Shown piece after piece: positions 2 through 37,499 of a stretch of 56,257 nucleotides of DNA (position 1 is the stretch's first letter; each line of letters opens with the position of its first letter). Origin of the DNA: Candidatus Hebobacterum abditum (GTDB taxonomy: Bacteria; Armatimonadota; Hebobacteria; Hebobacterales; Hebobacteraceae); contig JALGXW010000036.1 in the NCBI GenBank assembly GCA_029821875.1, positions 1-56,257 of the forward strand, read 5' to 3'. A program made the position numbers and the translations under genes. Under the pieces are notes generated by a model, which had not been told where the DNA came from, ran no database searches, and saw only the letters and a program-made list of their open reading frames with translations.

Positions 2-244
2 TGGCTCGACGTCAACGGGGTGAAGCTGGCTGACTGGGATGGCATCCAGAACGGCCCTCCCGGTGGCTGGCAGTGGGTCGGATCCAAGGAGAAGGGTCAG
101 CGTTGGACCTTGCGTTTCCTGTGGGCGGGGGGCATGCAGGGAACCCAGACGCACAACCTCTGGATCGGCGCGGACGAGAGCCCCATTCTCTGGTGGATCA
201 AGGTGACCGACCTCGAGGAGCACCTCGTCTACCCTCCGGAGTAG
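2..244 (+). CDS. C-terminal fragment of an unidentified protein (cut by window edge)
   Basis: The frame is open from the first base of the window to a TAG at 242-244, so only the last 80 residues are visible. The fragment is rich in tryptophan and glycine (W-D-G, G-G-W-Q-W-V-G, W-T-L-R-F-L-W) and ends in a charged tail. That composition suggests a beta-rich, possibly secreted or carbohydrate-related domain, but I do not recognise a family. A GTG at 20 exists, but coding evidently began upstream. A strong hairpin lies about 110 nt downstream and may end its transcript. Confidence 0.6.
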   Translation, partial: WLDVNGVKLADWDGIQNGPPGGWQWVGSKEKGQRWTLRFLWAGGMQGTQTHNLWIGADESPILWWIKVTDLEEHLVYPPE

Positions 245-10794: not shown

Positions 10795-13700
10795 ATGCGA
10801 GCGGCATGCTGCGCGCTGCTGTTGCTGGTCACCTCTCTGAGCCTATCGCCGGCCATCGCTGAAGTCGTCCCCGGGCGCGGGCTCGGTGCGCGCCCCCCGA
10901 CCCCGGCCGAGCAGGCCTACATCGATGCGGTCTACACCCAGACCACGGACGTGGCGCCGAACAGGCTGGCCCGCGCGCGGGAGGATCTGGAGAGGCGGGC
11001 GGCCGTGCAGCGCGGCGAGCTGCTGCCGACGGCCGACGGCCTGCCCTCGGCGGTCGACAACAGCACACTGCAGTACTTCCCGCCGATTCGAAGTCAGGGG
11101 AGCCAGGGCTCGTGCACGGCCTGGGCGTCGTGCTACTACTATGACACGTTCACACAGGCGTTCGATGAGGGCTACGACGTTTCGGGCGGGGACAACAACC
11201 ATATCTGCAGCCCCGCCTTCCTGTACCCGCTGATCAATGGCGGGGTCGACTACGGAGCATCGACCCAGTACGCCATGGCCCGCCTGAACGACCTCGGCTC
11301 CTCGAGCTGGGCGCTCAAGCCCTACTCGGCGAGCGATTGGACGTCGTGGCCATCGGAGGCAGCCTGGGTGCAGGCTCTCAACAACCGGACGCAAGAGCCG
11401 CATTGGATTGATGGCTCCACGGCGTCTGGCCTCGACGAGATCAAGCAGCACCTGGCGAACGGCAACCTGGCCGTGACCGACTTCTGGGTCTACGGCACGT
11501 GGTATGACTACTATCCCGCCGATAGGCCGGGCATTCACAGCGACGTCTACTATGCTTCCGATGGTGATGTGTTGGGCGGCCATGCGGTGACCATCGTCGG
11601 GTACGACGACAACAGGAGCTACGTGGATCACCGGGATGAAGAGACGCACTACGGGGCCTTCCTGGTCGCGAACTCGTGGGGCACGTGGTGGGGTGTGCCC
11701 AACAGCACCGGCGCCGGAGACGGCGGGTTCTTCTGGGTCGCGTACGACATGTTCCTCGAGGGGACATTCGGCCCATTGGTCTGCTACAACGATGACCGGC
11801 CGGACTACCGGCCGCGTCTCTACGCCGTCGTCGGCGTGAACCACCCGGAGCGGTGGGACCTGCGGCTCCGCGGGAGTGTCGAGGAGTGGCACTCCCACGA
11901 TGTCATCTACTACGCTGGCGGCGACCTCGCCGTGGCCGACGACAAGCGAATTGCGGTCGATCTGACCGACGGGATCCCACACCTGCCAGGCGACGGCAGC
12001 GGGCTGCTTTCCGCAGACCTCTATGTGTGGAGCGGCTCATACTATGACGCCACGCTGACGAGCGCGGACTTCTTCGCAGATCTGGACGAGGACGGAAGCT
12101 ACGACGAGCACTCCTCGGCCGACCCAACGCTCACAATCCAGCAGGGACAATGGGGCTACGCCTACGCCGGCCTCGGCCACAGCTTCTCCCTCACGGCTGC
12201 TGAGCCGGACCCCTCGGCCGTCGCCTCCCGAGGCATAGCCGATCTGTCTGCGGAGTACGTCGACAACCAGGGACACGGGGTGGCGCTGTGGGAGTGGAGC
12301 GACGGTGGTGCAGGTGGGCTGTTTGCCCCATCGCGGTACGTGCAGAGCCCAAGCTACACCGCGCCACCCAATGACGGCTACTCGGACATCATCGTCACTC
12401 TTGCCGTGACCGCGACCTGCGACGGCGAGGAGGCGCTGCTCGCCGGCGATTCGACGGCCCTGACCGTCCTCGCATCGCGCGTCAGGTTCGAGGATATCGG
12501 CACGGCCCTGAATCTTCCAGCCACGATCGGCGCGGCCTGGGGCGACTATGACGACGATGGCTATCCCGACCTGTACATCGGTGGGCTGTGGGGTGCGCAC
12601 CGCGCCTATCTGCTGCACAATAACGGGGACGGGACGTTCACCGATGTCACAGTCGCGATGGGCCTGCGCATCGCCTCCTCCGACTGGGAGGACTGGGGTG
12701 CTGCCTGGGGGGACTTCAACAACGATGGTGCGCTGGACCTGGTGGTGGTCGGCGGCAATCACCTTCCCTTCCTCTACCGCAACGACGGCGACCACTTCAC
12801 CGACATCGGGGGGGAGGCGGCCGGGTTCAGCAGTGTCTGGTACACTGGGCGCGGCGCTGCCTGGGGCGACTACGATGGTGACAACTGGCTCGACCTCTAT
12901 GTTGCCAACGACTACTGGGGCGCGCCTTCCTACCTCTATCGGAACAACAGGGATGGGACGTTCACCGAGGTAACTAGCGCGGCAGGAATGGACCTGGCGC
13001 CAGCCACCTATGGGCAAGGTTGCGCCTGGGGCGACTACAACAACGACGGGCTGCTGGATCTGATCGTCACTCGGACCCAGGAGGCAACCGGCAGCCAACA
13101 GGCCGCGCGCCTGTACCTGAATGACGGCGACGGCACGTTCACCGACATGGGAGTGGCGGCCGGCCTGCCCGCAAGTAGCCTGGAGGGAGTCGCCTGGGGC
13201 GACTACGATAACGACGGCTGGCTCGATGTCTACCTCGGGGGCAATCAGAACCGCAGCACACTTCTCTGCCACAATAACGGCGACGGCACCTTCACCAACG
13301 TTAACGACGAGGCGATGGATGCCGGCGCCAACTCGCTCGGAGTGGCCTGGGGCGACTACGACAATGACGGGTTCCTCGACCTAGCCCAGGGCAACGGCGT
13401 GCTGCCCCAGTACAACGAGTCCGGCCCCAGCAATCCGTTCCTCTTCCACAACAACAGGGACGGGACGCTCACCCAAGTCGCTGCCTCGGAGGGCGTAACA
13501 GCTCAGCGACGCTACCGCGCCGCCAGTTGGGCCGACTTCAACCTGGACGGGCACATCGATTTGCTCATGGCCGGTGAGGAGGGCTACTCGTGCCTCTACG
13601 AGAACTCCGGCACGCCGGCAGACGGAGACTGGCTCCGGGTCCGCGCCCTCACGAGCGTGACCGGCGATGCCACCGATGGCAGCCCCGTCCGCGACGCCCT

Positions 13701-15264
13701 GGGAGCGCGGGTGGATGTGAACCTGGACAACGACTCCACCTTCCCGCCCTATCGGACACTGATGCGGACCATCGACGGCGGCTCGGGCTTCATGAGCCAG
13801 AACGAGCAGATCGCACACTTCGGTGTAGGATCCGCGAGCACCGTGGCCGTGCGGGTCGCCTTTCCCGATGGGAGCATCGTGGCCGAGACCGACGTCGCGG
13901 TGAACCAACAGATCGTCGTGCGAGACGAGACGCATTGGCTCGGCGCGGTGGAAGGCGTGGTGACGGAACACGTGTCCGGGGAGCCGGTGCCTGGGGCCTT
14001 CGTGACTTGCGCCCATCTGACGGCTATCACGGATTTCGACGGCGCGTACTACGTCGACCGTGTGCCGATAGTCGCCGACCTGGCCGTGCGCGCCTGGGCC
14101 GCCGAGTACGAGTACCGGACGATCACCGGAGTCTCGGTATCGGCGGTGACGACCGTCGACCTCGGGGTCATACCGGCCGGGTATGGGGTGATTCAGGGCC
14201 TAGTGACGGACGCGCAGACCTCCGACCCTATTGAGGGCGCCACGGTGAGCTGCGGCGAGCCGGTGACGACCAACGCGGCTGGCGAGTACGTCTTCTACGT
14301 GGCGGCGGGAAGCGGCTACCTGGTCAGCGCCAGCGCACCCGGATATACGACGCAGAAGATCCCTGTGGCGCCAGTTGCGACGGGGGAGATAGTCCTGCTC
14401 GACATCGAGCTGGATACGGTGCAATATGGCTCGATCGGCGGCGTTGTGACAGATGCAGATTCTGGATCTCCCCTCGCCGGAGGCATGGTGAGGGCCTGCC
14501 GCGTACCAGATCCCGCGACGCAGATCGAGGTCTGCTACGAGACCACAGCTGCCGGCGACGGCACCTATCTCCTATCTGACGTGCCGGCCGCCAGCGGCTA
14601 CACCGTGACGGCTTCGGCGGACGGCTACTACTCAAGCTCTCAGGAGGATGTCTCGGTTGCAGCGGAGACCCTCACGGAGGTCGACCTCGGCCTCGCGTCG
14701 GAGTTCGAGGACGTGCCTGCAGGATACTGGGCCTTCGAGTCTGTGGGAGCATGTGTCGAGGCCGGCGTCGTTGCTGGCTACGCCGACGGTACGTATCATC
14801 CGGAGTCTGATGTCTCGCGCGATCAGATGGCGGTCTACATCTCCCGCGCCCTCGCCGGCGGAGACGCCAGCGTGCCCGAGTTCACCGGGAGCCCGAGCTT
14901 CCCCGATGTTCCGGCGGGGCACTGGGCCCTGAAGTACATCGAATACGCGGTGGGCGCCGGCGTTGTCGCCGGATACGGGGACGGCACCTACCATCCCGAG
15001 TACTCGGTGGACCGAGGGCAGATGGCGGTCTACATCGCACGCGGGATAGCCGGCGGAGATGACAACGTTCCATCCTTCTCCGGCGAGCCCACGTTCGACG
15101 ATGTGCCCGTCGGGTTCTGGGCCGTCGACTACGTGGAGTACATCGCCGACCCGCGGCGGGCCGTGACTGAGGGCTATCCGGATGGGCTCTACCACCCGGA
15201 GGTTGTAGTCAGCAGAGACCAGATGGCCGTGTACGTGGCGAGGGCATTTGGGCTGACCAGCTAG
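10795..15264 (+). CDS. SLH-anchored surface protein with papain-like protease, FG-GAP propeller and UnbV domain
   Basis: This 1489-residue exported protein starts with a signal peptide (cleavage probably after A-I-A, residue 22 or 23). A papain-family (C1) protease follows, with catalytic C107 in G-S-C-T-A-W, H263 in G-H-A-V-T-I-V-G-Y and N293 in N-S-W-G-T-W-W-G. Residues about 563-935 hold seven FG-GAP-like blades, each with a W-G-D-Y-D-x-D-G-x-x-D-L calcium-loop motif. Residues about 940-1045 are an ASPIC/UnbV domain, 1051-1302 three carboxypeptidase-regulatory-like beta domains and 1303-1489 three SLH repeats for cell-wall attachment. AAGGAGG precedes the ATG by about 6 nt. It probably sits on the S-layer and cleaves external or neighbouring proteins; the protease target is unknown. 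The downstream gene is a paralogue without the protease. Confidence 0.85.
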   Translation: MRAACCALLLLVTSLSLSPAIAEVVPGRGLGARPPTPAEQAYIDAVYTQTTDVAPNRLARAREDLERRAAVQRGELLPTADGLPSAVDNSTLQYFPPIRSQGSQGSCTAWASCYYYDTFTQAFDEGYDVSGGDNNHICSPAFLYPLINGGVDYGASTQYAMARLNDLGSSSWALKPYSASDWTSWPSEAAWVQALNNRTQEPHWIDGSTASGLDEIKQHLANGNLAVTDFWVYGTWYDYYPADRPGIHSDVYYASDGDVLGGHAVTIVGYDDNRSYVDHRDEETHYGAFLVANSWGTWWGVPNSTGAGDGGFFWVAYDMFLEGTFGPLVCYNDDRPDYRPRLYAVVGVNHPERWDLRLRGSVEEWHSHDVIYYAGGDLAVADDKRIAVDLTDGIPHLPGDGSGLLSADLYVWSGSYYDATLTSADFFADLDEDGSYDEHSSADPTLTIQQGQWGYAYAGLGHSFSLTAAEPDPSAVASRGIADLSAEYVDNQGHGVALWEWSDGGAGGLFAPSRYVQSPSYTAPPNDGYSDIIVTLAVTATCDGEEALLAGDSTALTVLASRVRFEDIGTALNLPATIGAAWGDYDDDGYPDLYIGGLWGAHRAYLLHNNGDGTFTDVTVAMGLRIASSDWEDWGAAWGDFNNDGALDLVVVGGNHLPFLYRNDGDHFTDIGGEAAGFSSVWYTGRGAAWGDYDGDNWLDLYVANDYWGAPSYLYRNNRDGTFTEVTSAAGMDLAPATYGQGCAWGDYNNDGLLDLIVTRTQEATGSQQAARLYLNDGDGTFTDMGVAAGLPASSLEGVAWGDYDNDGWLDVYLGGNQNRSTLLCHNNGDGTFTNVNDEAMDAGANSLGVAWGDYDNDGFLDLAQGNGVLPQYNESGPSNPFLFHNNRDGTLTQVAASEGVTAQRRYRAASWADFNLDGHIDLLMAGEEGYSCLYENSGTPADGDWLRVRALTSVTGDATDGSPVRDALGARVDVNLDNDSTFPPYRTLMRTIDGGSGFMSQNEQIAHFGVGSASTVAVRVAFPDGSIVAETDVAVNQQIVVRDETHWLGAVEGVVTEHVSGEPVPGAFVTCAHLTAITDFDGAYYVDRVPIVADLAVRAWAAEYEYRTITGVSVSAVTTVDLGVIPAGYGVIQGLVTDAQTSDPIEGATVSCGEPVTTNAAGEYVFYVAAGSGYLVSASAPGYTTQKIPVAPVATGEIVLLDIELDTVQYGSIGGVVTDADSGSPLAGGMVRACRVPDPATQIEVCYETTAAGDGTYLLSDVPAASGYTVTASADGYYSSSQEDVSVAAETLTEVDLGLASEFEDVPAGYWAFESVGACVEAGVVAGYADGTYHPESDVSRDQMAVYISRALAGGDASVPEFTGSPSFPDVPAGHWALKYIEYAVGAGVVAGYGDGTYHPEYSVDRGQMAVYIARGIAGGDDNVPSFSGEPTFDDVPVGFWAVDYVEYIADPRRAVTEGYPDGLYHPEVVVSRDQMAVYVARAFGLTS

Positions 15265-15417
15265 CGGAGAGAACGGAAGAAGCAAGCAAAAGAAGGGCGG
15301 TCAAGCGAGCACGTCGGTGGAACTCGCGGTCGGTCAGCGGTGCCGAATATGTGGGGACATCCTCGGCGGGTTCATGCTGGGTCCCGCTGTCCGTGCTCCG
15401 CAGGGGAGGCAACCGGG

Positions 15418-17481
15418 ATGAGATGCGGATTGGCAGGGCTGTTGGCTCTTTCCCTGATGTGCTGCGCGTCGGTCCCGGCCAAGGCGCAGCAGTTCTTGGA
15501 GCTCACGGATACGGCAGGCCTGCCGAATGCCGCGGGGCTCGGCTGGGGCGACTATGATGGGGATGGGTTTGCGGACCTGTTCGTCGCCGGCCACAATCAG
15601 GGATACACAGAGCTCCACCACGGGCCGTTCCTCTTTCGCAACACGGGGGTCGGCAGCTTACTGGACGTGAGCGAGTCGATGGGCATTCGCTCCGATGTCA
15701 TCATCGAGCAGGACGGGGTGGCCTGGGGAGACTATGACAACGACGGCGACTTGGATCTACTGGTCGGCTCGGGCGCGGGCTATCCCATGCTGTACCGGCG
15801 CGACGAAACACAGTTCGTCGAGGTCGGCGAGGTAGCCGGGTTCCATGTGTCCTTCAGCGCGGGCAGAGGCGTAACATGGTGTGACTACGATGGCGACAAC
15901 CTGCTGGAAGCCTTCTGCTCCAACATCTTCGGCCCGGGCTACCTGATGGAGAATGACGGCGATGGCACTTTCACCGAAGTGTCCGTCGCATCGGGCATGG
16001 ACCCGAGCAACGCCGGCCAGTCCGCCTCTTGGGGCGACTTCAGCAACGACGGCTGGCCCGACCTCGTGATCGCGCGGCTGGCCCAGCCGATGCTGCTCTT
16101 TGAGAGCAACGGCGACGGGACGTTCACGGACGTGAGCGACGCCTCCGGAATGAGCGCTTACATCGATGCCTACAGCGCGGTATGGGGAGACTACGACAAC
16201 GACGGTTGGCTTGACTGCTACGTGACGTCGGGGAACTATATCGAGCCGCAACTGCGACGGGACGCGCTCTTCCACAACGACGGTGATGGGACGTTCACTG
16301 ATGTCAGTGACATAGCTGGCATGGCGGGGGATGCCGCCAACGGCATCGGTGCGGCCTGGGCCGACTACGACAACGACGGCAACTTAGACATCTTCGTCGG
16401 GAACTTCGGCCAGCCGTCTTTCCTCTATCGCAACAACGGGAATGGGACGTTCACGGATATGTTCGCCGGGTCGGGACTCGACGGCGACTCGCATAGCGGG
16501 GCGGTGGCGTGGGCGGACATGGACCGCGACGGTCGTCTCGACCTGGCCCAGGGCACCTACAACGAGGCGACTCGTCTCTTCGGCAACATCAGCTATGGCG
16601 GCAACTGGCTCCGCCTGCGTGCCCTCACCAACGCGACCGGCGCCGCTACGATCGCCGAGCTCCCCGCCCGCGACGCCATCGGCGCTCGCGTCGACCTCAA
16701 CCTCGACAATGACGATGCGTTCCCGTCCGGCCGTACGCTGACTCGCATGATCGACGGCGGCTCGGGCTGGTGCGCCCAGAACGAGCAGGTCGCGCACTTC
16801 GGGGTCGCGACGTCAAGTGTCGTTTGCGTCCGCGTGCGCTTCCCCGACGGCAGTGTGGTCACCCACCGCAGCGTGCCGGTCAACCGGCAGATCACGATCA
16901 GAGATGTCCCCGCCGACCGCACCGAGGAGGTCTTCGACGATATCCCCCTCGACTTCTGGGCCTATGAGGAGACCAAGGGATGTGCGGAGGCCGGCATCGT
17001 GGCCGGCTATCCCGACGGCCTCTATCACGGCGCGAACCCTGTCACCCGCGATCAGATGGCCGTTTACGTCGCCCGCGCGCTGGCGGGCGGAGATGACAAC
17101 GTTCCCGACTTCACGGACACGCCGACCTTCCCCGATGTCGGGTCAGAGCACTGGGCGCTGAAGTATGTCGAGCACGCGGTCGATCAGTCGGTCGTGGGCG
17201 GCTATGAGGACGGCACCTACCATCCCGAGTACGACGTGGATCGAGGTCAGATGGCGGTCTACATCGCTCGCGCCCTGGCCGGCGGGGCCGGGAACGTGCC
17301 GGACCCGTCGGGTGGCGCCAGCTTCCCCGACGTTGGCTCCGACTTCTGGGCCTATCGCCACATCGAGTACTGCGTCGAGAATGGCGTGGTGCAGGGCTAC
17401 CTGGACGGCAACTACTACCCCGACAACGTCGTCACTCGCGATCAGATGGCGGTATACGTAGCCCGGGCGTTTGAGCTGTAG
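15418..17481 (+). CDS. SLH-anchored FG-GAP/UnbV surface protein
   Basis: The 687-residue product has a signal peptide (M-R-C-G-L-A-G-L-L-A-L, cleavage near A-K-A). Seven FG-GAP-like blades follow, with W-G-D-Y-D-x-D-G-type loops, although the third is degenerate (T-W-C-D-Y-D-G-D-N). An ASPIC/UnbV domain (residues about 425-500) and three C-terminal SLH repeats complete it. It is a paralogue of the 3' part of the preceding gene, with closely matching UnbV segments (I-D-G-G-S-G, Q-N-E-Q, A-H-F-G-V). GGGGAGG at 15403-15409 fixes the ATG at 15418; an upstream in-frame start at 15340 lacks this support and a signal sequence. It probably serves as an adhesive or structural cell-surface component. 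Confidence 0.85.
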   Translation: MRCGLAGLLALSLMCCASVPAKAQQFLELTDTAGLPNAAGLGWGDYDGDGFADLFVAGHNQGYTELHHGPFLFRNTGVGSLLDVSESMGIRSDVIIEQDGVAWGDYDNDGDLDLLVGSGAGYPMLYRRDETQFVEVGEVAGFHVSFSAGRGVTWCDYDGDNLLEAFCSNIFGPGYLMENDGDGTFTEVSVASGMDPSNAGQSASWGDFSNDGWPDLVIARLAQPMLLFESNGDGTFTDVSDASGMSAYIDAYSAVWGDYDNDGWLDCYVTSGNYIEPQLRRDALFHNDGDGTFTDVSDIAGMAGDAANGIGAAWADYDNDGNLDIFVGNFGQPSFLYRNNGNGTFTDMFAGSGLDGDSHSGAVAWADMDRDGRLDLAQGTYNEATRLFGNISYGGNWLRLRALTNATGAATIAELPARDAIGARVDLNLDNDDAFPSGRTLTRMIDGGSGWCAQNEQVAHFGVATSSVVCVRVRFPDGSVVTHRSVPVNRQITIRDVPADRTEEVFDDIPLDFWAYEETKGCAEAGIVAGYPDGLYHGANPVTRDQMAVYVARALAGGDDNVPDFTDTPTFPDVGSEHWALKYVEHAVDQSVVGGYEDGTYHPEYDVDRGQMAVYIARALAGGAGNVPDPSGGASFPDVGSDFWAYRHIEYCVENGVVQGYLDGNYYPDNVVTRDQMAVYVARAFEL

Positions 17482-17541: not shown

Positions 17542-17772
17542 CTACCATACGGCCGGGGCGCGGCCGAGCACGACCCGCAACGACCGCTCTCCCTGAGAGG
17601 CGTTGTCCTCAGACGCCTGGATGCTCATGTCGGGATTCGCCGCGGCAATCGCCTCCGTTTCCCTCCCAGTCTCGAATTCGTACAATGTCATGTCACGCGC
17701 GGCCATAGCCTGACACCTCAAGCAGGCGGGGATTGATCCGAGCACAAAGACGAGCAACAGGCCCAAGCTCAT
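17542..17772 (-). CDS. Short secreted or lipoprotein-like product, probably a truncated gene
   Basis: The frame encodes 76 residues from the ATG at 17772: a hydrophobic signal-like segment (M-S-L-G-L-L-L-V-F-V-L-G) and a cysteine in I-P-A-C that could be an imperfect lipobox. Then comes a segment (Y-E-F-E-T-G, S-E-D-N-A-S-Q-G-E-R-S-L-R-V) that looks like the opening strands of a beta-sandwich carbohydrate-binding domain. It stops within that domain, so I suspect a remnant of a larger secreted protein. An in-frame start at 17832 would overlap the upstream deacetylase-like gene by 14 nt. Function unknown. Confidence 0.4.
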   Translation of the reverse strand: MSLGLLLVFVLGSIPACLRCQAMAARDMTLYEFETGRETEAIAAANPDMSIQASEDNASQGERSLRVVLGRAPAVW

Positions 17773-17818
17773 GCGCGAGGGCCCGCCTACTGCGGGCCCC
17801 GAGCCAGACCTAATGCGG

Positions 17819-20317
17819 TCACGAGCTGACATCTTGCTCAACATCACCCGATGTCCGCCTCAGCGAAGCGCTTCCCGACATGAGCAGCTCACCCGTAGTT
17901 TGATCTACTGTCTCCAAGCTGGCCCGGACACGGTCTGGCCTGACCTCGACCAGCCGGGCTTTGCCCACCACAGGACGGTCCTGCTTGACCGACCTGCGAA
18001 ACCTAACACGCACGTGCTCCACTTGCCACGCGCGTGGTGACAAGGGCTCAGGATCCCCACACGCGGCCGCGGCTGCACACGCGGCGACGGCGATGGGGAA
18101 GCCTCCCATCGGGTGGATTCCGCGGCCGAGCGGCTCTGCGCCCGCCGCCACGGGGTTCATCAAGAGCCTCAGCAGCCCTGCTGGCAGAACGACTGCAGCG
18201 GAGTCCCCGGGGCTAGGTTCCGTCCCCGCCCTGCGTGTCTCGACCACTTGCGGGCAGGGGATCTCAAGGATCGGCTCGGCCGTTGGTGCAGACGGCGGCA
18301 TTGATTCTGGCGGGAGTCGGGCCGGGAGCTCGGACGGTTCAACGCGGGCATCTTCACCTCCCCTTCCAGCAGGGCGGTGCATGTGAAGCAGCAGTTCATA
18401 GACGGCATCGCGTCGCTCGACCGCGAAGGCAAGGGAGGCACTGGGCGAGGAGATGCCCGAGCAGGCCGCGATCTCTCGCCCGTCGCTCAGCACCTGCGCC
18501 ATCCCCACCTCTCCGGGAGGCAGCCAGGCCGGGAGCGTGATCGTAACCAGGTGGCGGCGCGCGGCCGAGACGGGAATGGTCGAGCCCAGAAGACGGATGC
18601 GGAATCGCAGCAGCCCGCCCTCCCCCTCAGCACGCTCGGCTCTCGGCTCGACCACCGCGGCCAACGCCGGAGTGTAGTAGTCGAGGAACTCCAGGGCAAC
18701 TTCCGACATGGTGCCGAACAACACTTCCGGGTGTCTCGCGGTGACGTACTGCAGATGCTTGTCGAGCTTGGCGAAGTCGCCGCCTTCCACGTCCTCCATG
18801 CGGCCGGATCCGCCCTTCATGTTCATGGCATGCGCAGAAGCAACTATGGCGTGCACGCCAGGAGCTATGCTGCCGTCGGGCAGGAGAAGGGACTCTCGCT
18901 GTGCCTCAAACCACGCCGTGAGCTGATCGAGGGTGACGGCATCGAACGTCGCAGTGGGCGCCTTGAACTGCACGAGCCCGGCCTGAGAAAGATCGGGTAT
19001 CTCCCTCTCGATGTCATCCGGGCAGCAAAAGTAGGCCTGCCTTCCCCTTGGATATGCCCCGATCGACTCATGGTAGCCAGCATCGGCGTCAGCGATCAGG
19101 CCGTTGCGTAGATGGGCGAGAGTGCTGATGCGCTGATCGTCTGGGCTCACGCCGAAATCGCAGGCGCCCGCGCGCGCGCAGTGCGGCTGGCGATGCCCGC
19201 GCTGCAGCCGAGAAAGAAAGGAGCAGGCTCTGTGCAACGAGCCCGTCTTACTGTCGCCCTCCGAGAAGCTGCCAAGGGCCTTCACATAGGAGAAGCCCTT
19301 TCGGCCTCCGTCCCAGCCATGGTAGCGGTGGTTCGGGTTTGTCTCAGGGTCATAGAACTGGTTCGGTATTATCCCGTCGGTCTCGGGGTCGTATCTCAGG
19401 CGGGGCTGAGGGAGCATGGCCGAATCCGGCTCGAAGCCGAAGTGAATGTGGGGCGCATACTCATGGTGCACGCAGCCGCGCTGAATACTCTCATCCAGCA
19501 GCGCGATGACCTCCTGCCAGCGCCCTGTCGACGACTGGCGCGCCGCCCACTCCGCCGCGAAGCGCTGCGAAGTGCACCAGAAGTGCGTCCACTTCGCCCC
19601 ATGCTTGTCGGCGATGTGATTCATGGCGTTGGGCTTCTCGACCATCTGCCACCTGTACTCATCTGGGTCCATGAAGTTGTTTCGGTTGTGCATCGACAGC
19701 AGCTCAGGCGAGGCGCTGTAGTCGCCAGTCAGCTCGCCGCCGTCGAAGGTCTCGCAGTCCTCGGTGAGCACGTAGTAGATGCGCCCCGGCTCCGGGTCCG
19801 TCACCTCGACCGAAACGCGTTCCTGTCGGTACTCCTCGGACTCGCCGTGGAGGATGAAGATGAGCGACCAAGGGCGGCCGAGGTTCACCTCGCTTGGTCG
19901 CTGGGCCGTGATCTCCCACTCCACTTGCTGCTGCTCATCATGCGCCAGGTGGAAGGGCATGGGCGTAACGAGTTCGGCGAGGACCCCGAAGCCGACGGGT
20001 TCTGTCGCCACTGCGCACAAGTTCAGCGCGCTCGGCCCACCGTTGTGCACGCTGATGCTGAACGAGACTCGCTCGCCAACTACGAGCGAAAGGGTCTTAG
20101 CCGGCAGATCGAGTCGCAGCCCACCTTCTGCGGGACCGGCCTCGGTGATCCGTGGCTGGCCCCCCCCGGGGCCAGCCCTCTGGGTGCGTGCGAGTTCCCT
20201 GATCTCGTGGCCGAGGCGGGAGTGCTCGGCCTTCATCCGCTCAAGCTCAGGCTGCAGGTAACGGGAGACGAAGTAACCGAAGAACCGATCTATCATCCGC
20301 TTCGCGATCGCCTTCAT
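17819..20317 (-). CDS. Polysaccharide-deacetylase-like protein with C-terminal hotdog domain
   Basis: The 832-residue product is a mosaic. Residues 1-45 are helical and charged, perhaps coiled coil. About 70-175 look like a CARDB-type beta-sandwich (E-R-V-S-F-S-I-S-V-H-N-G-G). About 180-540 resemble a NodB/polysaccharide-deacetylase barrel beginning Y-Y-V-L-T-E-D-C-E-T-F-D, where the acidic residues could bind metal; several histidines follow. After a proline-rich linker, residues about 705-825 resemble a hotdog thioesterase/dehydratase fold (V-R-F-R-R-S-V, then V-V-G-K-A-R-L-V-E-V). No signal peptide is seen. The same hotdog segment recurs in the upstream gene, 120 bp away. Deacetylase activity is inferred, and the metal triad is not the textbook D-D-H-H. 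I know of no described protein with this fusion. Confidence 0.6.
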   Translation of the reverse strand: MKAIAKRMIDRFFGYFVSRYLQPELERMKAEHSRLGHEIRELARTQRAGPGGGQPRITEAGPAEGGLRLDLPAKTLSLVVGERVSFSISVHNGGPSALNLCAVATEPVGFGVLAELVTPMPFHLAHDEQQQVEWEITAQRPSEVNLGRPWSLIFILHGESEEYRQERVSVEVTDPEPGRIYYVLTEDCETFDGGELTGDYSASPELLSMHNRNNFMDPDEYRWQMVEKPNAMNHIADKHGAKWTHFWCTSQRFAAEWAARQSSTGRWQEVIALLDESIQRGCVHHEYAPHIHFGFEPDSAMLPQPRLRYDPETDGIIPNQFYDPETNPNHRYHGWDGGRKGFSYVKALGSFSEGDSKTGSLHRACSFLSRLQRGHRQPHCARAGACDFGVSPDDQRISTLAHLRNGLIADADAGYHESIGAYPRGRQAYFCCPDDIEREIPDLSQAGLVQFKAPTATFDAVTLDQLTAWFEAQRESLLLPDGSIAPGVHAIVASAHAMNMKGGSGRMEDVEGGDFAKLDKHLQYVTARHPEVLFGTMSEVALEFLDYYTPALAAVVEPRAERAEGEGGLLRFRIRLLGSTIPVSAARRHLVTITLPAWLPPGEVGMAQVLSDGREIAACSGISSPSASLAFAVERRDAVYELLLHMHRPAGRGGEDARVEPSELPARLPPESMPPSAPTAEPILEIPCPQVVETRRAGTEPSPGDSAAVVLPAGLLRLLMNPVAAGAEPLGRGIHPMGGFPIAVAACAAAAACGDPEPLSPRAWQVEHVRVRFRRSVKQDRPVVGKARLVEVRPDRVRASLETVDQTTGELLMSGSASLRRTSGDVEQDVSS

Positions 20318-20437
20318 GCCGAGTCTCTCGATCCTGTGTTCCTTGTGTGCAGCGCGCGAACTGCTGCGGCTGTGGGCTAAGTCGTAAGATGGCGAGGCGC
20401 AGCATCCACCGCTGGAGAGCCTGCCTGGATACGGCGG

Positions 20438-21061
20438 CTAGAGGGCCCGCGCTCCCGGCGCGGACCTCGAACAGAGCCGATGCAGTGCTCCACGCAGAGC
20501 GAGCAGAAGGCGTGCGACGCGCCCACCAGTATGTGCGGAGAAGCAGGTACGGGCGGCCTCCGGAGAGGGTCCCTCGAACGCCAACATGCCGTCGCTGAGG
20601 CGGAGGGCTCGTCCCTCCCGGACGGGGACGAACTCTAGCTCCCCCGTCATGAGCACTTCGCCGGTAGCGGCCGCAGAAGTCTCAACAGCCAAGTGGAGTG
20701 TGGACCGCCGCACATCTCTCAACCGCGCGCGGCCGATGAGCACCTCGCCCCGGCGGACGGGGCGGCGCCAACTAAGGGCCAGCCCGGCTGCAAGCCAGTC
20801 GAATGTATCGTTATCCCTGTCGTGATGACCGAGCACGAGGTAGGCCGCCGTCCCCGCAGCGGACAGGGCCAGTATGATCTCCGGAAGAACGCCAGCACCC
20901 AGTGGAAGACTGCTGCCGGCCACTGGCGAACTCAGCAGGTCCAGCATGCCCGACTCGATCTGCGCCTCGGCGCTGTCGCCCGCTGTCACGCGGCCGGGCT
21001 CCCGGCGTGAGACTCTCGTCGTCGTCGGCTTGAGTATCCGCAGAAGGTAGCCAGTGCTCAC
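20438..21061 (-). CDS. Hotdog-fold-like protein, paralogue of the downstream fusion's C-terminus
   Basis: The 207-residue product starts at a GTG (21061) about 50 nt inside a transcript from a strong promoter. Its core (residues about 25-155) matches the last 120 residues of the next gene: G-D-S-A, a G-(L/M)-L-x-L-L and P-V-A segment, a small-residue-rich helix, then W-R-R-P-V-R-R-G and a closing strand E-V-L-M-T-G-E-L. This order is that of hotdog thioesterases or dehydratases, which act as dimers, so the two proteins might pair. No catalytic residue is obvious. The tail (after about 160) is low in recognisable structure. Shine-Dalgarno is weak (GGAG about 16 nt upstream), so the exact start is uncertain. 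Confidence 0.55.
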   Translation of the reverse strand: MSTGYLLRILKPTTTRVSRREPGRVTAGDSAEAQIESGMLDLLSSPVAGSSLPLGAGVLPEIILALSAAGTAAYLVLGHHDRDNDTFDWLAAGLALSWRRPVRRGEVLIGRARLRDVRRSTLHLAVETSAAATGEVLMTGELEFVPVREGRALRLSDGMLAFEGPSPEAARTCFSAHTGGRVARLLLALRGALHRLCSRSAPGARAL

Positions 21062-21569
21062 GGCGCGAGCTTACTCCGATTTCTGCGCAACACGCCTCTG
21101 CTGCGCTGTGTCGAGTGATCATATCGCACCCCCCTCCCCCTGTCAAACCGGAGGTGCGCGCGGCTATCTCGGCCTTGCCCAACGGCGGGCCCCGCCATCA
21201 CAGACACGTCCCGGGCTCCGCCGGGCGAGTAGTGATGTGAGACGCGACCGCCCGGCCTCGCTGCGCGCGAGACTGAGGTAAGACCATCTGCAGATCGCCG
21301 CACCTGAGCGGGGCCGACGGCTAGCATAGCGTGCCGGAAGGACGGGCTCGACAGCCCTGCTGAATGCGTCCTCCACACCCCCGGGCCGGACCCCTGCAGC
21401 CACAGGGCCGTCCTGCTTTCGCACGCGCACCACCGTGGTGGCGATGCAGGAGCTACCCACTCCCATGTCAAAGCGAGAGGGTGCATGTGAACAGGTTCCC
21501 TGGGCGACACTTCGCTGCCCAGGACTCGATGCCGCCGGGCGGCCGCAGCCGCTCGGCTTAAGACGGCCC
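21062..21569. other. Divergent intergenic region, 508 bp
   Basis: The region separates the leftward hotdog/deacetylase genes from the rightward propeller-ABC operon. It contains the leftward promoter at 21118-21146 and small GC-rich hairpins (ggcgg/ccgcc near 21184, cccgg/ccggg near 21210). No rightward promoter is convincing. Open frames here, including one on the minus strand at 21164-21640, have no protein-like features. An in-frame ATG at 21465 with AGGAG about 14 nt before it is an alternative start for the next gene. Confidence 0.5.
21118..21146 (-). promoter_or_regulatory. Strong sigma-70-like promoter for the hotdog/deacetylase genes
   Basis: Read on the minus strand, TTGACA (21146-21141, 6/6) and TATGAT (21123-21118, 5/6) are separated by exactly 17 bp, a spacer made almost wholly of G. 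A start near 21110 leaves a leader of about 50 nt before the GTG at 21061. This is one of the best promoter matches in the window. Confidence 0.75.
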
Positions 21570-22652
21570 ATGGCTCTGAAGAAGCTAGCATTGACTCTGC
21601 TGCTCATACTCATTGTGGCACTAGCCGGGCTCGCGTTCATCCACTCGGGTCAACTCAGGTATGTGGCTGCAGTTGGAGGCGATGTAGCCTCCGTCGCGAC
21701 AGGCGACGGTCGCTGGATCGCCTGGGTGGAGCGCGAGAGTGACAAGGCCCGGCTGGTTGCAGTTCGGCACCGCGGCGATCGCGCGCGCGTCTTCCTCACG
21801 GCCGACCATCTCTCCGGGCTTGCCGTTGCGCACGATGGCGTATTTGTCACGCGCTCACACCAGGTCGAAGGTGGGCGGACGGCCGCGGAGCTCCTCCACG
21901 TGGACCTGCTCAGCGGCCGCGCCGACCGCGTCGCAGCGCTGCCATCAGTTGCCGAAGAGATCGTCGCGGGAGATGGCTTCGTCTGTTGGAGGGAGCGCCG
22001 GGGGCCTGCACTCCAAAACGTCCACTTCGTCGCCGCCGCGGCGCCGCTCGACGTGCTCCGAACGTACGACGCCCGCTCCGAGAGAACCCGCGCGCTTGCG
22101 GTCATCGCTGGGCGCACAGCCGCGCCTGCCGACGGTGTCAGCCTTGTGGCGGTGGCGGGCGAACACATATACTGGTTCGAGCGCCGCGAGAGCGCGGCCG
22201 GCCGAGAGACCCTGATCAGACGCGCGGCGCTTCCGGACGGCGGAGCTGAGACTCTGGCACGAGAACCTGGCTTCCGGCACGCGGCCCTCGCGCACGACTC
22301 TATCCTGTGGACCGCTCCCTCCCTAGAGGCGCCAAGGGAGCGTTCCCGCTCTGCCGTCAAGCGTCTGTTCTTCCGTGACTCGGTACCGCACACCATTGCC
22401 GACTGGCTTGGCTCGGATGGCGAGTTGCAGGTCTCCAGGGACAGAATCTACTTCCGCGAGCGGGCGAGGCTCTGGCGCCTTGGAGATGTGCGCGGCGAGC
22501 AGCGTGCGCGCTCGTGGGGGCTGCCGGGCACGGTCAATGCCCGCATAGTCGACGGTGAGGAGTACGTGTTCGTGCGCACAGGCTCGGGCCTGGCCGTGGC
22601 AACCAGGCCTCTGAGCTTGTCTGCCCGTCTCCTGCGGATGCTGGGAGGATGA
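21570..22652 (+). CDS. Membrane-anchored beta-propeller-like protein
   Basis: The 360-residue product has a lysine-flanked N-terminal membrane helix (A-L-K-K-L, then a run of L/I/V/A to about residue 25) and an extracytoplasmic beta-rich region. Repeating motifs such as D-G-R-W-I-A-W-V, D-G-V-F-V-T-R, E-H-I-Y-W-F-E and D-R-I-Y-F-R-E recur about every 45 residues, as in a beta-propeller. It is the first of five tightly spaced genes; the next begins 10 nt after its stop. The start is uncertain because no good Shine-Dalgarno precedes 21570. I chose it because the signal-anchor begins there. A sensor or substrate-binding role for the ABC system is inferred. Confidence 0.6.
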   Translation: MALKKLALTLLLILIVALAGLAFIHSGQLRYVAAVGGDVASVATGDGRWIAWVERESDKARLVAVRHRGDRARVFLTADHLSGLAVAHDGVFVTRSHQVEGGRTAAELLHVDLLSGRADRVAALPSVAEEIVAGDGFVCWRERRGPALQNVHFVAAAAPLDVLRTYDARSERTRALAVIAGRTAAPADGVSLVAVAGEHIYWFERRESAAGRETLIRRAALPDGGAETLAREPGFRHAALAHDSILWTAPSLEAPRERSRSAVKRLFFRDSVPHTIADWLGSDGELQVSRDRIYFRERARLWRLGDVRGEQRARSWGLPGTVNARIVDGEEYVFVRTGSGLAVATRPLSLSARLLRMLGG

Positions 22653-22662
22653 AGGCGCGCTC

Positions 22663-23832
22663 ATGAGTCACACGAGGAGGGATGTCAATCCGATAGTCGC
22701 TCTCCTAGGGATCGTAATCACCCTTGCGGTCGTGCAGCTCCTGTACTGGCGCGGGCTCCGCGCAGTGCCGCCTGAGGAGCTGAGCGGGCCGCGGGAGCGA
22801 AGAGGTCCGAGCAGTCGCTTCGAGGCCCCCGCGGGACGTTCCGACGTGCGTGTAGGAACGCTGGCAGGCTCTCCCGCGTCGGGCCACCAGGACGGCCCTG
22901 CCGGCGAAGCCCTCTTCGACGGGCCGGCATCTGTCGCTTCCGACAGCAGCGGGTCCGTCTATGTCGCCGACAGCCGGAACCACTGTCTCCGTCGCATCTC
23001 CCCCGACGGGCTCGTTAGCACGCTCGCGGGAGTGGCCGGAGAAGCCGGTTTGGCCGATGGCTCCCCCACCGAGGCGCGGTTCTCAGGCCCTGCAGGCCTC
23101 GCGGTTGCGCGCGACAAGACTCTGCTCGTGGCCGACACCGGGAACCATATGATCCGCCGCGTGTCGCGCGCCGGCGACGTTACTACGGTCGCAGGAGCAG
23201 AGACCGCTCGCGATGATCTCGGCCGCCCGCTCGGCGGCCACCAGGACGGGCCCGCCCACGGCGCCCAGTTCCGTTACCCCGTCGGCCTCGCCGTATCCGA
23301 CGACCGCGCGATCTATGTGGCCGACGCGGGGAATCACTGTGTGCGGCGGATCGACGAGAACGGCGAGGTCACGACTCTCTCGACCGAGGGGGAGGGTCAA
23401 CTCGAAGCCCCGACACACCTCGCATTCGCCGAGGACGGCCGCCTATGGGTGGCCGACCCCGCTGGCGGCGCGCTCTGGGTGGGCCCTGCCTCCGGACCGC
23501 TGCAACCGTGGGAGCCCCCTGAAGACATGGCCGACTTGAGTTCGCCGGCCGGGCTCGCGTTTGTCCGAGACGATGGATCGGAGCCGCGTCTCGTCGTCGC
23601 CGACAGCGGGGCCAATTGCCTGTGGGAGGTCGGCGACGGCCGGGCCGCGATCCTGGCTGGTGTAGGCAGCGGCGAGCCCCCGGGCTGGCGAGATGGTCCG
23701 GGCGACCGGGCGCAGTTCTCGTGTCCGGCCGGGGTCGCAACGGGCCCGCGCGCGGGTCTGCTCGTCGCCGACTTCGGCAACAATTGCGTTCGCCAGGTGC
23801 TGTCCCGAGCCGATGCTGAGGAGGTTGAGTAG
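22663..23832 (+). CDS. NHL-repeat protein with N-terminal membrane anchor
   Basis: This 389-residue protein has one N-terminal membrane helix (I-V-A-L-L-G-I-V-I-T-L-A, residues about 10-28) and then NHL propeller repeats with the typical V-A-D-(S/T/A)-x-N-H-x-(L/I/V)-R-R-(I/V) consensus near residues 104, 157 and 223, and degenerate copies later. NHL domains bind proteins, RNA or glycans and are often regulatory or adhesive. The fold should face the periplasm or exterior. It ends directly against the start of the ABC ATPase gene, so it is probably a component of that system, perhaps recognising its cargo. Start 22663 follows GGAGGATGAAGG closely. Confidence 0.8.
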   Translation: MSHTRRDVNPIVALLGIVITLAVVQLLYWRGLRAVPPEELSGPRERRGPSSRFEAPAGRSDVRVGTLAGSPASGHQDGPAGEALFDGPASVASDSSGSVYVADSRNHCLRRISPDGLVSTLAGVAGEAGLADGSPTEARFSGPAGLAVARDKTLLVADTGNHMIRRVSRAGDVTTVAGAETARDDLGRPLGGHQDGPAHGAQFRYPVGLAVSDDRAIYVADAGNHCVRRIDENGEVTTLSTEGEGQLEAPTHLAFAEDGRLWVADPAGGALWVGPASGPLQPWEPPEDMADLSSPAGLAFVRDDGSEPRLVVADSGANCLWEVGDGRAAILAGVGSGEPPGWRDGPGDRAQFSCPAGVATGPRAGLLVADFGNNCVRQVLSRADAEEVE

Positions 23833-24723
23833 GTGCAGATAGAGATTCGAGGGTTGCGCAAGGTCTATCCCGGCGGCATCGTGGCCATCGACAACTTGGA
23901 CCTGACAATCCCTCCCGGCGTCTTCGGGCTCGTGGGCCCCAACGGGTCCGGGAAGACCACCCTGATGCGCATCCTCGCCACTCTCCTCGATCCGACCGAG
24001 GGCGAGGTCACCGTCGACGGGCTCGACCTGCGGCGCGGCCGGGCCGCCATCCGCAGCATGCTCGGGTACATGCCGCAGGAGTTCGGGTTCTACCCGACGC
24101 TCACGGCCTACGAGACTCTGGACTACTTCGCCCTGCTGTGTCGCATGACTGTGCCGACACAGCGCCGCGAGCGTATCGACGAATCGCTTCAACAGGTGAA
24201 CCTGAGCCAGTACGCGGACCGCCGCGTCGGGACCTTCTCCGGCGGGATGAAGCAGCGGCTCGGCATCGCTCAGGCGCTGCTCAACGATCCCCGTGTGCTC
24301 ATCGTGGACGAGCCCACCTCCGGACTGGACCCGGAGGAGCGGATTCGCCTTCGGAGCCTCATCGCCGAGCTGGGGGCCGGCCGCATCGTGATCCTGTCTA
24401 CCCACATCGTCAGCGATGTCGAGATGGCGGCGGAGCGCCTTGCCATTCTGCGCGGCGGGAAGCTGCTGTTTGCCGGGCACACATCGCAGATACTCGCGCC
24501 GCTCTCCGGAAGGACCTGGATCATCGACATCGAGGATGACGAGCTGTCCCAGGTGAGGGAGGAGCACTTCGTGACCGGGGTGTTTCGCTCCGCCACGGGT
24601 CTGCAGGTTCGGGTCATCGCGGACGACGTGGCTCACCCCCGGGCCCGGAAGGCGACACCGACACTCGACGACGCATACGTATCGGCAATGCAGCAGACGG
24701 TGACTCTCGTTGACGCAGAGTAA
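23833..24723 (+). CDS. ABC transporter ATP-binding protein (ABC-2 type)
   Basis: The 296-residue protein is a complete nucleotide-binding subunit: Walker A G35-T42 (G-P-N-G-S-G-K-T), Q-loop Q82, signature S-G-G-M-K-Q-R (136-142), Walker B ending D159-E160 and switch histidine H191 in S-T-H-I-V. A C-terminal extension of about 60 residues is usual for ABC-2 exporters of the NatA/CcmA group. It should energise export with the two permease-like proteins encoded after it. The GTG at 23833 follows the preceding TAG with no gap, and its own end overlaps the next gene by 14 nt. The substrate is unknown. Confidence 0.9.
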   Translation: MQIEIRGLRKVYPGGIVAIDNLDLTIPPGVFGLVGPNGSGKTTLMRILATLLDPTEGEVTVDGLDLRRGRAAIRSMLGYMPQEFGFYPTLTAYETLDYFALLCRMTVPTQRRERIDESLQQVNLSQYADRRVGTFSGGMKQRLGIAQALLNDPRVLIVDEPTSGLDPEERIRLRSLIAELGAGRIVILSTHIVSDVEMAAERLAILRGGKLLFAGHTSQILAPLSGRTWIIDIEDDELSQVREEHFVTGVFRSATGLQVRVIADDVAHPRARKATPTLDDAYVSAMQQTVTLVDAE

Positions 24724-25981
24724 CGCCCAGGCGATCATCTCCCTCATCCTGCGGGAGTACCAGCTCTCCAGGCGCTCGGCCAGCTTCTGGGCCGTGGCCG
24801 CGCTGGGATCGGTGCTGGCGATCTGGCGCGGCAGCTCGCCCGGCACGCTCGCGGCTGCGGCGGCCTATCAGACCTCGCAGATCATCGTCCTCGGCGTGGG
24901 GGTGATGGCGATTGTGCTGGCCGGATCGGCCGCCGTCCGCGACCGCAGACGAGCAGCAGAGGAGTTCGTGCTGGTCAAGCCTGTGGGCACCTCTCCGGCG
25001 CTGGTGCTTGCCCGGTTCGCGGCCTCCGCCCTGTCGCTGCTGACCGTGGCTGCCATAATGCTGGTCGCCGCCGCGGCCGCTCAGGGGGTGCTGGCCGGCA
25101 CTCCCGTCCGCTTCGCGCCCTACGCGGCCGGGCTCCATCGCTCCCTGGCTCCGCTTGCAGTGGCCACCGCGCTCGGATTCTCGCTCACCAGCCTGTTCGG
25201 AACGCAGCTCGCGGCCGGTGTGGCCGCGGTCTATTGGGTCGCGGTCCCGCTCGCCCGCCCCCACACCCCGATAGTGCTCGACCTGACGCTCTCCCAGCAC
25301 TGGCCCCACTCTGCGTTGCTCGCCTGCGCGCTCGTGGCCCTTACGGCCTCCCTCCATGCCCGCGCGCTCCGGACCGATCCTCGCTGGGGACAGTGGATGG
25401 GAGCGGCCTCCCTGCTGTTGCTCGTCGCCGCCGCTTTCGCTGTCCTCGGCGCGCTGCGCAGCGGAGACGACGCCTTGATCGAGCCAGATCCCATACTCGC
25501 CGCCATCGCAACTCAGGCGGTCAGTGAAGGAGATCCCGCGCCCGGCTTCTGGCTCTCGGACGCAGGCGGGAACCTGGTGGGGCTCAGCGACTTCGATGGC
25601 AGACCCGTCGTGCTCGCATTCTGGGGGCCTGGCGCCCCGAACTCCGTGCGCCTTCTGCCCGCGCTGGACGCGCTTGCCGGGCGGCACTCCGGTGCCGGCC
25701 TTGCCACAGTTGCCGTCTGCCTGGATCGCGATGCCGCCGCGATACGGCCTTTCGCAGGCGAACTCCGAAACGACGTGGTCCTCCTGTGGGACCGCGGACG
25801 CCACTTCGGCGATGGCCTGGAGTGGTCCGACTCCCCCCTCACGGTGGCCTATGATGTGCGCAGCGTGCCCACCGTGGTCGTTCTCGATCGCCAGCGGCGC
25901 ATTGTCGCCGTCCTTACCGAGAAGGGTGCCTTGGAGCAGCGGCTCGAGTCTGTCGTGTCGCGACTTGTGGAAGAGCGATGA
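24710..25981 (+). CDS. ABC-2-type permease fused to a cysteine-less thioredoxin-like domain
   Basis: The 423-residue product has about six membrane helices in its first 255 residues, then a TlpA/AhpC-TSA-like domain (about 283-423) with the expected order: P-A-P-G-F-W-L-S-D, L-S-D-F-D-G-R-P-V-V-L-A-F-W and a cis-proline loop V-P-T-V-V-V-L-D. The redox centre is changed: A309-P310-N311-S312 replaces the usual C-P-x-C, so thiol chemistry is not expected. A binding or assembly role is inferred. It starts at a TTG overlapping the ATPase gene by 14 nt and ends in an ATGA overlap with the next gene. Such permease-thioredoxin fusions are unfamiliar to me. Confidence 0.75.
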   Translation: MTQSNAQAIISLILREYQLSRRSASFWAVAALGSVLAIWRGSSPGTLAAAAAYQTSQIIVLGVGVMAIVLAGSAAVRDRRRAAEEFVLVKPVGTSPALVLARFAASALSLLTVAAIMLVAAAAAQGVLAGTPVRFAPYAAGLHRSLAPLAVATALGFSLTSLFGTQLAAGVAAVYWVAVPLARPHTPIVLDLTLSQHWPHSALLACALVALTASLHARALRTDPRWGQWMGAASLLLLVAAAFAVLGALRSGDDALIEPDPILAAIATQAVSEGDPAPGFWLSDAGGNLVGLSDFDGRPVVLAFWGPGAPNSVRLLPALDALAGRHSGAGLATVAVCLDRDAAAIRPFAGELRNDVVLLWDRGRHFGDGLEWSDSPLTVAYDVRSVPTVVVLDRQRRIVAVLTEKGALEQRLESVVSRLVEER

Positions 25982-33026: not shown

Positions 33027-33186
33027 CGAGGCCCGTCGTGGACGCCAAGCAGAATCGCAAGCCGCCCGGGGTCCAGCCATTCTGTCGCGAAGTTGAGTTC
33101 GTAGGACAGGAGCTTGCCTCCTGCCCGCAAGGCGTGCCCTCCGGCTCCGCTCAGGGCCAGTAGCAGACTGCCGAGACAACTAAGCA

Positions 33187-36484: not shown

Positions 36485-36558
36485 AGGCGCAGCCGCTGTC
36501 CGGCGCGCCCGCCGGGCCCCGAGGCGCAGCCGCTGTCCGGCGCGCCCGCCGGGCCCCG
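36485..36558. repeat. Exact 37-bp tandem duplication causing a frameshift
   Basis: Copies occupy 36485-36521 and 36522-36558 and are identical, from aggcgcagcc to gggccccg. As 37 is not divisible by three, one extra copy shifts the frame of the surrounding gene. Both copies are GC-rich. Confidence 0.9.
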
Positions 36559-36709
36559 CGCGATGACGGGCGACCCCGCGTCTATGCGTTCCCAACGGAC
36601 CGTGTCAGGGCTCCAGGCCAGTTCGATCTGAACCGTGTCGGTGGGCACATGGAAGATGGCGACCAGCCCAAGGAAGACGCCTCCGTGCTCGAAGATCGGC
36701 ATGGAGTAG

Positions 36710-36799
36710 GTCTGGCTCTCCGGGCTGCGCGGGTCGGCGCGCATCACCTCCACGGTCTGGCTCTCCGGGCTGCGCGGGTCGGCGCGCATCACCTCCACG
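36710..36799. repeat. Exact 45-bp tandem duplication
   Basis: Two identical copies at 36710-36754 and 36755-36799 encode a 15-residue direct repeat in frame. A second tandem repeat occurs 150-310 bp away in the same gene, which is unusual for otherwise non-repetitive coding sequence. Confidence 0.9.
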
Positions 36800-37499
36800 G
36801 CTTTGCTCCAGTTCATGAAGTCGGAACTCTCGGTGCGGGCCACCAGACGCTGCCCCGAGCGGCGGTCCCACAGCCGGGTGATGCCCACGTACTTGCCGAG
36901 GGAGGAGACCCAGATGGCGTTGTTGTGCGTGTCGCCCTCGGCCTCGATTTCAGCAAAACGAACCGCTTCGCTCCATCGCTTTCCGTCGGGCGAGAACGCC
37001 CCGGAGATGTCGCGGTCTGCATAGAACATCTTGTAGCGACGGCCGGCCTCGGTGTCGCGCGGATCGAAGCAGACACCGGCCCCGTGCGGCCCGCGCGCCA
37101 CCAGGTTGCTGTTCTTCGAGCCTTCGAACTCCATCAGACCGAGGTCCGGCTTGGTCCACGTGATCCCATCGCGCGACTCCGCGTAGCACACGCCCATCTC
37201 GCGTCTTTCGGGAGCATACGTGGTCTTCGACCTGTCGGCGACGGGTGTGCTGCTCACGGCATCGTCGACGATGAACGGGCTATACCAGCACTGATAGAGC
37301 CCACTCGAGGGGTCGCGCCGAACGTTGGGATAGAGGTTGTCGTAGCGGACCTCCCAGGGCTGGTCCTCTCCGAACAGAGGATTGCGGACGTCCTTCTCCG
37401 CCTGGCAGACTCGGAGCGTGGCGTTCTCCACGCGCGCGACAAGCCGCCGATCGAGGAGAAGATAGCGGCCCCTCTGCCTGGCCGGCGATCCCATCGCCC

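Follow-up and report, generated by a model that had tools for sequence, protein, structure and literature searches.

Two neighbouring genes of Candidatus Hebobacterum abditum, one for a stand-alone hotdog protein and one for a large protein that ends in a hotdog domain of its own, raise the question of whether their products form a single complex and, if so, what such a complex would do. The genes lie at positions 17,819 to 21,061 of a stretch of 56,257 nucleotides (nt) (contig JALGXW010000036.1 of assembly GCA_029821875.1; hereafter the window). Our favoured answer, a tentative one, is a lineage-restricted two-subunit protein: a cytosolic hotdog heterodimer, probably acyl-thioester-binding, that is tied to a divergent NodB-like domain. 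Subunit A (P0002) would be a single hotdog domain, and subunit B (P0001) would consist of a coiled-coil helix, an immunoglobulin (Ig)-like domain, a divergent barrel of the NodB/CE4 superfamily, a beta domain and, at the C-terminus, a second hotdog, anciently paralogous to subunit A. The parts are ordinary; their arrangement is unusual and rare.

Two hotdog copies in one gene pair

Both genes are on the minus strand. P0002 (20438-21061, 207 residues, GTG start) is followed downstream by P0001 (17819-20317, 832 residues, ATG start). Proteins of the P0001 type were found in 3 out of 291 genomes of the phylum: the window's own genome (G000), a member of the same family (G004; P0005, 69% identical to P0001 over residues 422-829), and a member of another family of the class (G012; P0004, 63% identical over residues 1-206, after which a scaffold gap follows). 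G012 also encodes an orthologue of P0002 (P0003, 61% identical).

The first-pass annotation had aligned the C-terminal part of the 832-residue protein with the core of the 207-residue protein by eye, and this alignment holds. BLASTP matches P0001 residues 683-815 to P0002 residues 6-140 at 32% identity (E=9e-15), which defines a common domain of ~135 residues, and the Smith-Waterman score of the two domains is 157, whereas 2000 shuffles averaged 33 and reached 69 at most (z=21.7). The landmarks named in that annotation (a GDSA start, a small-residue helix and a GKAR/GRAR strand) also align. Since the two copies, in addition, match each other and nothing else in the 4.3-Mb genome, the paralogy is real: the two hotdog copies are paralogues. 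Identity is 61-69% within the stand-alone and the fused type and ~29% between them, from which it follows that the two types diverged before the genomes did.

The hotdog assignment itself is supported. The AlphaFold model of P0002, built on a four-row alignment (A2), places strands at residues 13-18, 30-35, 89-98, 108-117, 122-130 and 136-146 around a central helix at 60-77, with block values of the predicted local distance difference test (pLDDT) of about 77-92 across most strands and lower values in the loops. Foldseek and VIA-align put this model among the PaaI, FabZ and FapR hotdogs (VIA Z 11-13, root-mean-square deviation (rmsd) about 3, ~115 residues), so that a hotdog fold is supported by modelling for residues about 13-147 (20621-21025). 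The ~60-residue C-terminal tail of P0002 is modelled as disordered and is less conserved (51% identity, nonsynonymous rate (dN) 0.43). In P0001, the hotdog occupies residues about 690-823 (17849-18250) behind a proline-rich linker and is conserved in P0005; its model has lower confidence (pLDDT about 45-67) and the same order of elements as P0002, which together with the homology to P0002 bears out the domain at this end as well. The Pfam family 4HBT (PF03061) scores the two copies at 19.2 and 19.7 bits, just under the gathering score of 20.6, and gives E=1.1e-3 for the fused hotdog domain alone. No signal peptide or transmembrane segment is apparent by hydropathy in P0001 or P0002, and both proteins are therefore likely located in the cytosol.

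A sigma-70-type promoter, TTGACA-17-TATGAT, stands ahead of the pair at 21118-21146 on the minus strand (block TTGACAGnGGGAGGnGnGTGCGATAnnATCAC, 11 of 12 consensus positions matched). It is the sole TTGACA-16..18-TANNNT site in the window, where 0.15 would be expected, and it is kept in G012 as TTGACAGTGGGAGGCGTGTGCGATAATAT at an equal distance to the start codon. The likeness of the block between G000 and G012 exceeds that of the surrounding DNA, and the DNA similarity of the two genomes begins exactly at the -35 box. This conservation supports the dedicated promoter that had been proposed for the pair. A search of the 120-nt spacer between the genes (20318-20437, minus strand; 142 nt in G012) gave no promoter-like site, and P0002 and P0001 are likely co-transcribed from the upstream promoter. 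The promoter block was rejected as a regulon signal: there are 0 further copies in G000, G004 and the sister species G001, and the one site in G012, with 3 mismatches, was taken as chance.

The core of the larger protein

Ahead of its hotdog, P0001 contains a modelled N-terminal amphipathic helix or coiled coil (residues 2-47, 20177-20314) that lacks a signal peptide, an Ig-like beta-sandwich (residues about 65-175, 19793-20125; pLDDT mostly 64-84), an unclassified core (residues about 178-550, 18668-19786), and a predicted beta-rich domain (residues about 553-646, 18380-18661) whose modelled secondary structure is of moderate to low confidence, all on the minus strand. By VIA, the Ig-like domain matches beta-sandwiches of GH123 enzymes, a sialidase, complement and S-layer proteins at Z about 10-11.6. 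The fold of the core was not obtained, with pLDDT mostly 20-45 at residues 175-567 of the AlphaFold model, so the lack of NodB structures among the listed rows of the fold search is uninformative. Matches of the whole P0001 model to TesB double hotdogs in that search were set aside (rmsd above 20, TM-score about 0.1).

Is this core the polysaccharide-deacetylase-like domain that the first-pass annotation took it for? The core carries loose NodB-type landmarks in the right order: YYVLTEDCE (TEDCE at 185-189), KWTHFW, HEYAPHIH (285-292), RAG (382-384), H496 and FGTMSEV (534-540). A pattern that combines three of these landmarks occurred in 0 out of 20,000 shuffles and, among 581 open reading frames (ORFs) of at least 200 residues in all the DNA analysed, matched only P0001 (in three copies that overlap) and three ORFs of genuine NodB proteins. 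Divergent NodB1.2 members likewise retain their motifs only marginally (PMC10967932). Compared to the NodB/CE4 deacetylases (PF01522), the core shares the order of loose landmarks, namely an acidic loop, an HE..xH segment, RAG, a late His and a terminal T-x-SE strand, whereas it differs in having no Pfam match, no TFDDG, H[ST]xxH or RxPxG, no export signal, and a length of about 370 residues instead of about 200. Because the two proteins are likely cytosolic, exported polysaccharide deacetylases are not the closest functional comparison.

A number of observations weigh against the favoured reading, most of them concerning this core. Neither Pfam nor NCBIfam gives a match to the 386-residue core at thresholds up to E=10 (the NCBIfam rows being chance), and the PDB gives none; PF01522 itself yields nothing up to E=10, while the same model clearly matches in 19 out of 21 relatives. 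Unfiltered phmmer and hhalign found no similarity between the core and ten NodB proteins from relatives, the hhalign value of E 0.15 coming from an alignment of non-equivalent segments, and the canonical motifs MT1, MT2, MT3 and MT4 (as in PMC10967932) are absent from the core as patterns. The combined landmark pattern is suggestive but no real test, since it was composed after the core had been read. On the side of the hotdogs, the similarity to FapR, the nearest solved sequence relative, spans just 57 residues of the common hotdog sheet. Finally, the genomes are few: both genes, in the same order, are seen in the window's genome and G012 only, and the contig of G004 (DAOVEW010000121.1) begins inside the gene. 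A search of the phylum with the core alone (E<=1) returned the three known genomes and chance-level pieces, which were rejected; several of the best pieces were read and do not look like relatives, since they lie within or opposite the reading frames of other genes, including a MurG-like one.

An alternative is a core that is unrelated to NodB, an orphan enzyme or a scaffold domain whose link to glycans is spurious. The failure to match Pfam, NCBIfam, the PDB or the NodB proteins of the phylum, and the looseness of the motifs, are as such a domain would predict; nevertheless, TEDCE, HEYAPHIH and FGTMSEV do stand in order, and in G012 the pair has a glycosyltransferase gene as its direct neighbour. 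We consider this alternative somewhat unlikely. The label of the first-pass annotation survives in part: the ordered landmarks make a NodB-like core plausible, whereas family, structure and profile matches are lacking and the model of the core is of low confidence. In G012, the glycosyltransferase gene is divergently oriented, and the arrangement is not repeated in the window; we regard this neighbour as a weak hint of a glycan context.

The hotdogs and their known relatives

What might the hotdogs bind? The hotdog profile matches FapR at E=7e-4, and the fused copy alone at E=0.028. FapR has been described as the only well-characterised family with a non-catalytic hotdog fold, and in SaFapR the malonate is held by Arg110-Gly111 (PMC3536700). 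Conserved within the types are G-A-G-V-L-P-E61 in the stand-alone proteins and R732-G733-x-H735-P in the fused ones. With this region aligned by eye, R732-G733 is a possible counterpart of Arg110-Gly111. The likeness to the effector-binding domain of FapR, a malonyl-CoA sensor (PDB 2F41/2F3X/4A0Y), consists in the R-G ahead of the helix of the fused copy and in a FapR hotdog that is non-enzymatic; however, FapR is a homodimeric repressor with an N-terminal helix-turn-helix (HTH), and the stand-alone copy here lacks the Arg. No HTH family matches P0001 or P0002, and the first strand of P0002 begins after no more than about 12 residues. The FapR model of NCBIfam (NF003359) matches none of P0001, P0002, P0003 and P0006 and gives 0 hits over its cut-off in 61 genomes, the window's own included, so a FapR orthologue in the lineage was discarded as a candidate.

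Alternatively, the hotdog pair could be an enzyme: a heterodimeric thioesterase or hydratase that, in the manner of HadAB or ChsH1-ChsH2, has a single functional composite site and makes, trims or removes an acyl group used on a glycan or lipid, the barrel serving as its partner enzyme. Most hotdogs are thioesterases or dehydratases (PMC516016), PaaI and FabZ are structural neighbours, and a single conserved candidate residue lies close to the helix start in each copy (Glu61 in the stand-alone and His735 in the fused copy). T. thermophilus PaaI is among the best structural matches of P0002 (Z 13.3, rmsd 2.9, 113 residues), and the 4HBT scores come near the cut-off, albeit on its lower side. 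Against this stands the helix: in the alignment, which is a reading of the sequence and not a structural superposition, there is no acid after Glu61 in P0002 and P0003 and none in the fused copies. Neither copy agrees with the PaaI/4HBT class II signature (an HGG-type start and a mid-helix Asp/Glu), and no His/Asp or His/Glu dyad is recognisable in the hotdog sequence alignment. From the PaaI/4HBT thioesterases, the two copies differ further in being a paralogue pair and in the fusion. Overall, we think an enzymatic pair unlikely, and acyl-thioester binding somewhat more likely than catalysis.

Heteromeric hotdogs provide a precedent for the arrangement. HadAB and ChsH1-ChsH2 have one active site per heterodimer of unlike hotdog halves, one of which is inert, and an extra domain of ChsH2 tethers a second enzyme (PMC11321319). 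Like P0002 and P0001, HadAB/HadBC and ChsH1-ChsH2 are adjacent, unlike hotdog paralogues. In contrast, they are MaoC-type hydratases in which one subunit carries a His/Asp dyad; no dyad is recognisable here. The extra domain of ChsH2 is DUF35, whereas the partner domain in P0001 is a large, predicted barrel-like domain. Fusions of the Rosetta type (Dillon and Bateman 2004, PMC516016) are similar in that a hotdog is joined to another enzyme domain and has separate operon neighbours; the fusions listed there are with HAD, 3HCDH, AMP-binding and acetyltransferase domains, and the word 'polysaccharide' is absent from that paper. The earlier statement that no system with this layout has been described is upheld as far as one paper collection reaches, in which we found no paper that joins a hotdog, a polysaccharide deacetylase and a fusion.

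Hotdogs dimerise as a rule. The two domains could therefore be purely structural modules that assemble P0001 with P0002 (or homodimers) and bind no acyl thioester, and the lack of a catalytic signature and the alanine-rich central helix of the fused copy would suit such a role. However, R-G-x-H-P and G-A-G-V-L-P-E are kept within their types at the ligand end of the helix, suggesting a ligand site, and the ratio of nonsynonymous to synonymous substitution rates (dN/dS) is as low in the hotdogs as elsewhere. This makes a structural role alone quite unlikely.

Under the favoured reading of an acyl-thioester-binding heterodimer, the unlike hotdogs would pair across the usual hotdog dimer interface to form one composite site for an acyl thioester (acyl-coenzyme A (acyl-CoA) or acyl carrier protein (acyl-ACP)), a site that would chiefly bind its ligand and not hydrolyse it. 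The acyl-thioester pool would thereby be linked to the barrel, through either its activity or its position, and the barrel would act on an N-acylated sugar or a lipid-linked glycan precursor. We infer the barrel fold, the heterodimer, the ligand, the substrate and the enzyme activity: the heterodimer is plausible because P0002 and P0001 are co-conserved and heteromeric hotdogs are known, and its acyl-thioester binding and tie to a NodB-like domain are suggested by the FapR R-G lead and the HadAB/ChsH1-ChsH2 precedent. That the whole is a previously undescribed, acyl-thioester-gated glycan-modifying complex, in which acyl-CoA/ACP status controls or feeds a NodB-like amidohydrolase via a heterodimer of a separate subunit and the barrel enzyme's own hotdog, is a speculation that we put forward with low confidence.

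Distribution, surroundings and meaning

Purifying selection acts on the genes, which also move as a pair, as seen from their joint conservation and from dN/dS values (NG86) below 0.4 in every segment (dN/dS of 0.30/1.03 for P0002, 0.14/0.67 for the core and 0.22/1.47 for the fused hotdog). The order of the pair and its promoter are kept across two families of the class, and the flanking genes differ. No match to P0001 or P0002 was found in the sister species G001 (92% complete) or in the family members G002 and G003. GTDB contigs gave none with P0001, and with A3 they gave the G004 contig again and nothing else; viral contigs, plasmids and phages held no further members. Across the phylum, profile A2 recovered, beyond the known members, ordinary hotdogs (FabZ, YbgC-type), which were discarded. 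That the hotdogs never meet, P0002 being an independent homodimer (e.g. a thioesterase) and the co-occurrence reflecting only an old tandem duplication that has moved en bloc, would fit the 120 nt that separate the genes without overlap and the unrelated neighbourhoods of the pair, but is improbable given that both genes and the promoter stay together in two families though all other synteny is lost, and that each type keeps its own residue pattern.

Next to the pair, the window has a family-level conserved block on the plus strand (21435-28122) of an unknown protein, an NHL-repeat protein, an ABC ATPase, a membrane protein-redoxin fusion and a further membrane/TPR-like protein. The neighbours from the gene at 21435 through NHL and ABC to redoxin are kept in G003 and G004, and the NHL-ABC-redoxin part in G001 and G002. 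As G001-G003 keep these neighbours but show no match to the pair, the two genes form an accessory unit that adjoins a conserved block. G012 is a gapped scaffold listed as one contig, with 100-N gaps at L008 3501-3600, 8263-8362 and 11498-11597; because of this, and because such a gap cuts its P0001 orthologue, its gene order past the gaps is unreliable. NAPRTase was dropped as a yardstick of divergence for G012, as its match looks non-orthologous.

Elsewhere in the window, a 101-codon ORF on the minus strand (17542-17847), without a Pfam match, overlaps the end of P0001. When translated from an internal ATG, it begins in a signal/lipobox-like manner, continues with an FE...G..SLRV segment that resembles the beginning of a carbohydrate-binding module, and then meets a stop codon; it is probably what is left of a truncated gene. 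Tandem FG-GAP/UnbV-ASPIC proteins with three SLH domains each are encoded on the plus strand at 10795-15264 and 15340-17481, the former with an additional papain-like (C1) peptidase region and carboxypeptidase-regulatory repeats; the DNA of their SLH parts recurs dozens of times in related genomes. A span of about 20 kb encodes four DUF6785/DUF6784 proteins of unknown function (28361-30295 and 45939-47879 on the plus strand, 31038-33179 and 40933-42936 on the minus strand). Two perfect tandem duplications, at 36485-36562 (37 bp x2) and 36709-36800 (45 bp x2), lie within a 586-codon ORF that is GC-rich and matches no Pfam family; they could have arisen recently or stem from the assembly.

With two genes and one promoter, the unit is of a size that allows direct expression and testing. 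If only the ordinary parts hold, the locus is a clean case of hotdog duplication, fusion and co-retention, together with a large core domain outside the families of the profile libraries. If the hotdogs pair, their heterodimer would be physically part of a carbohydrate-type enzyme and directly connect lipid (acyl-CoA/ACP) with glycan metabolism, and it would possibly represent another non-enzymatic use of the hotdog fold besides FapR.

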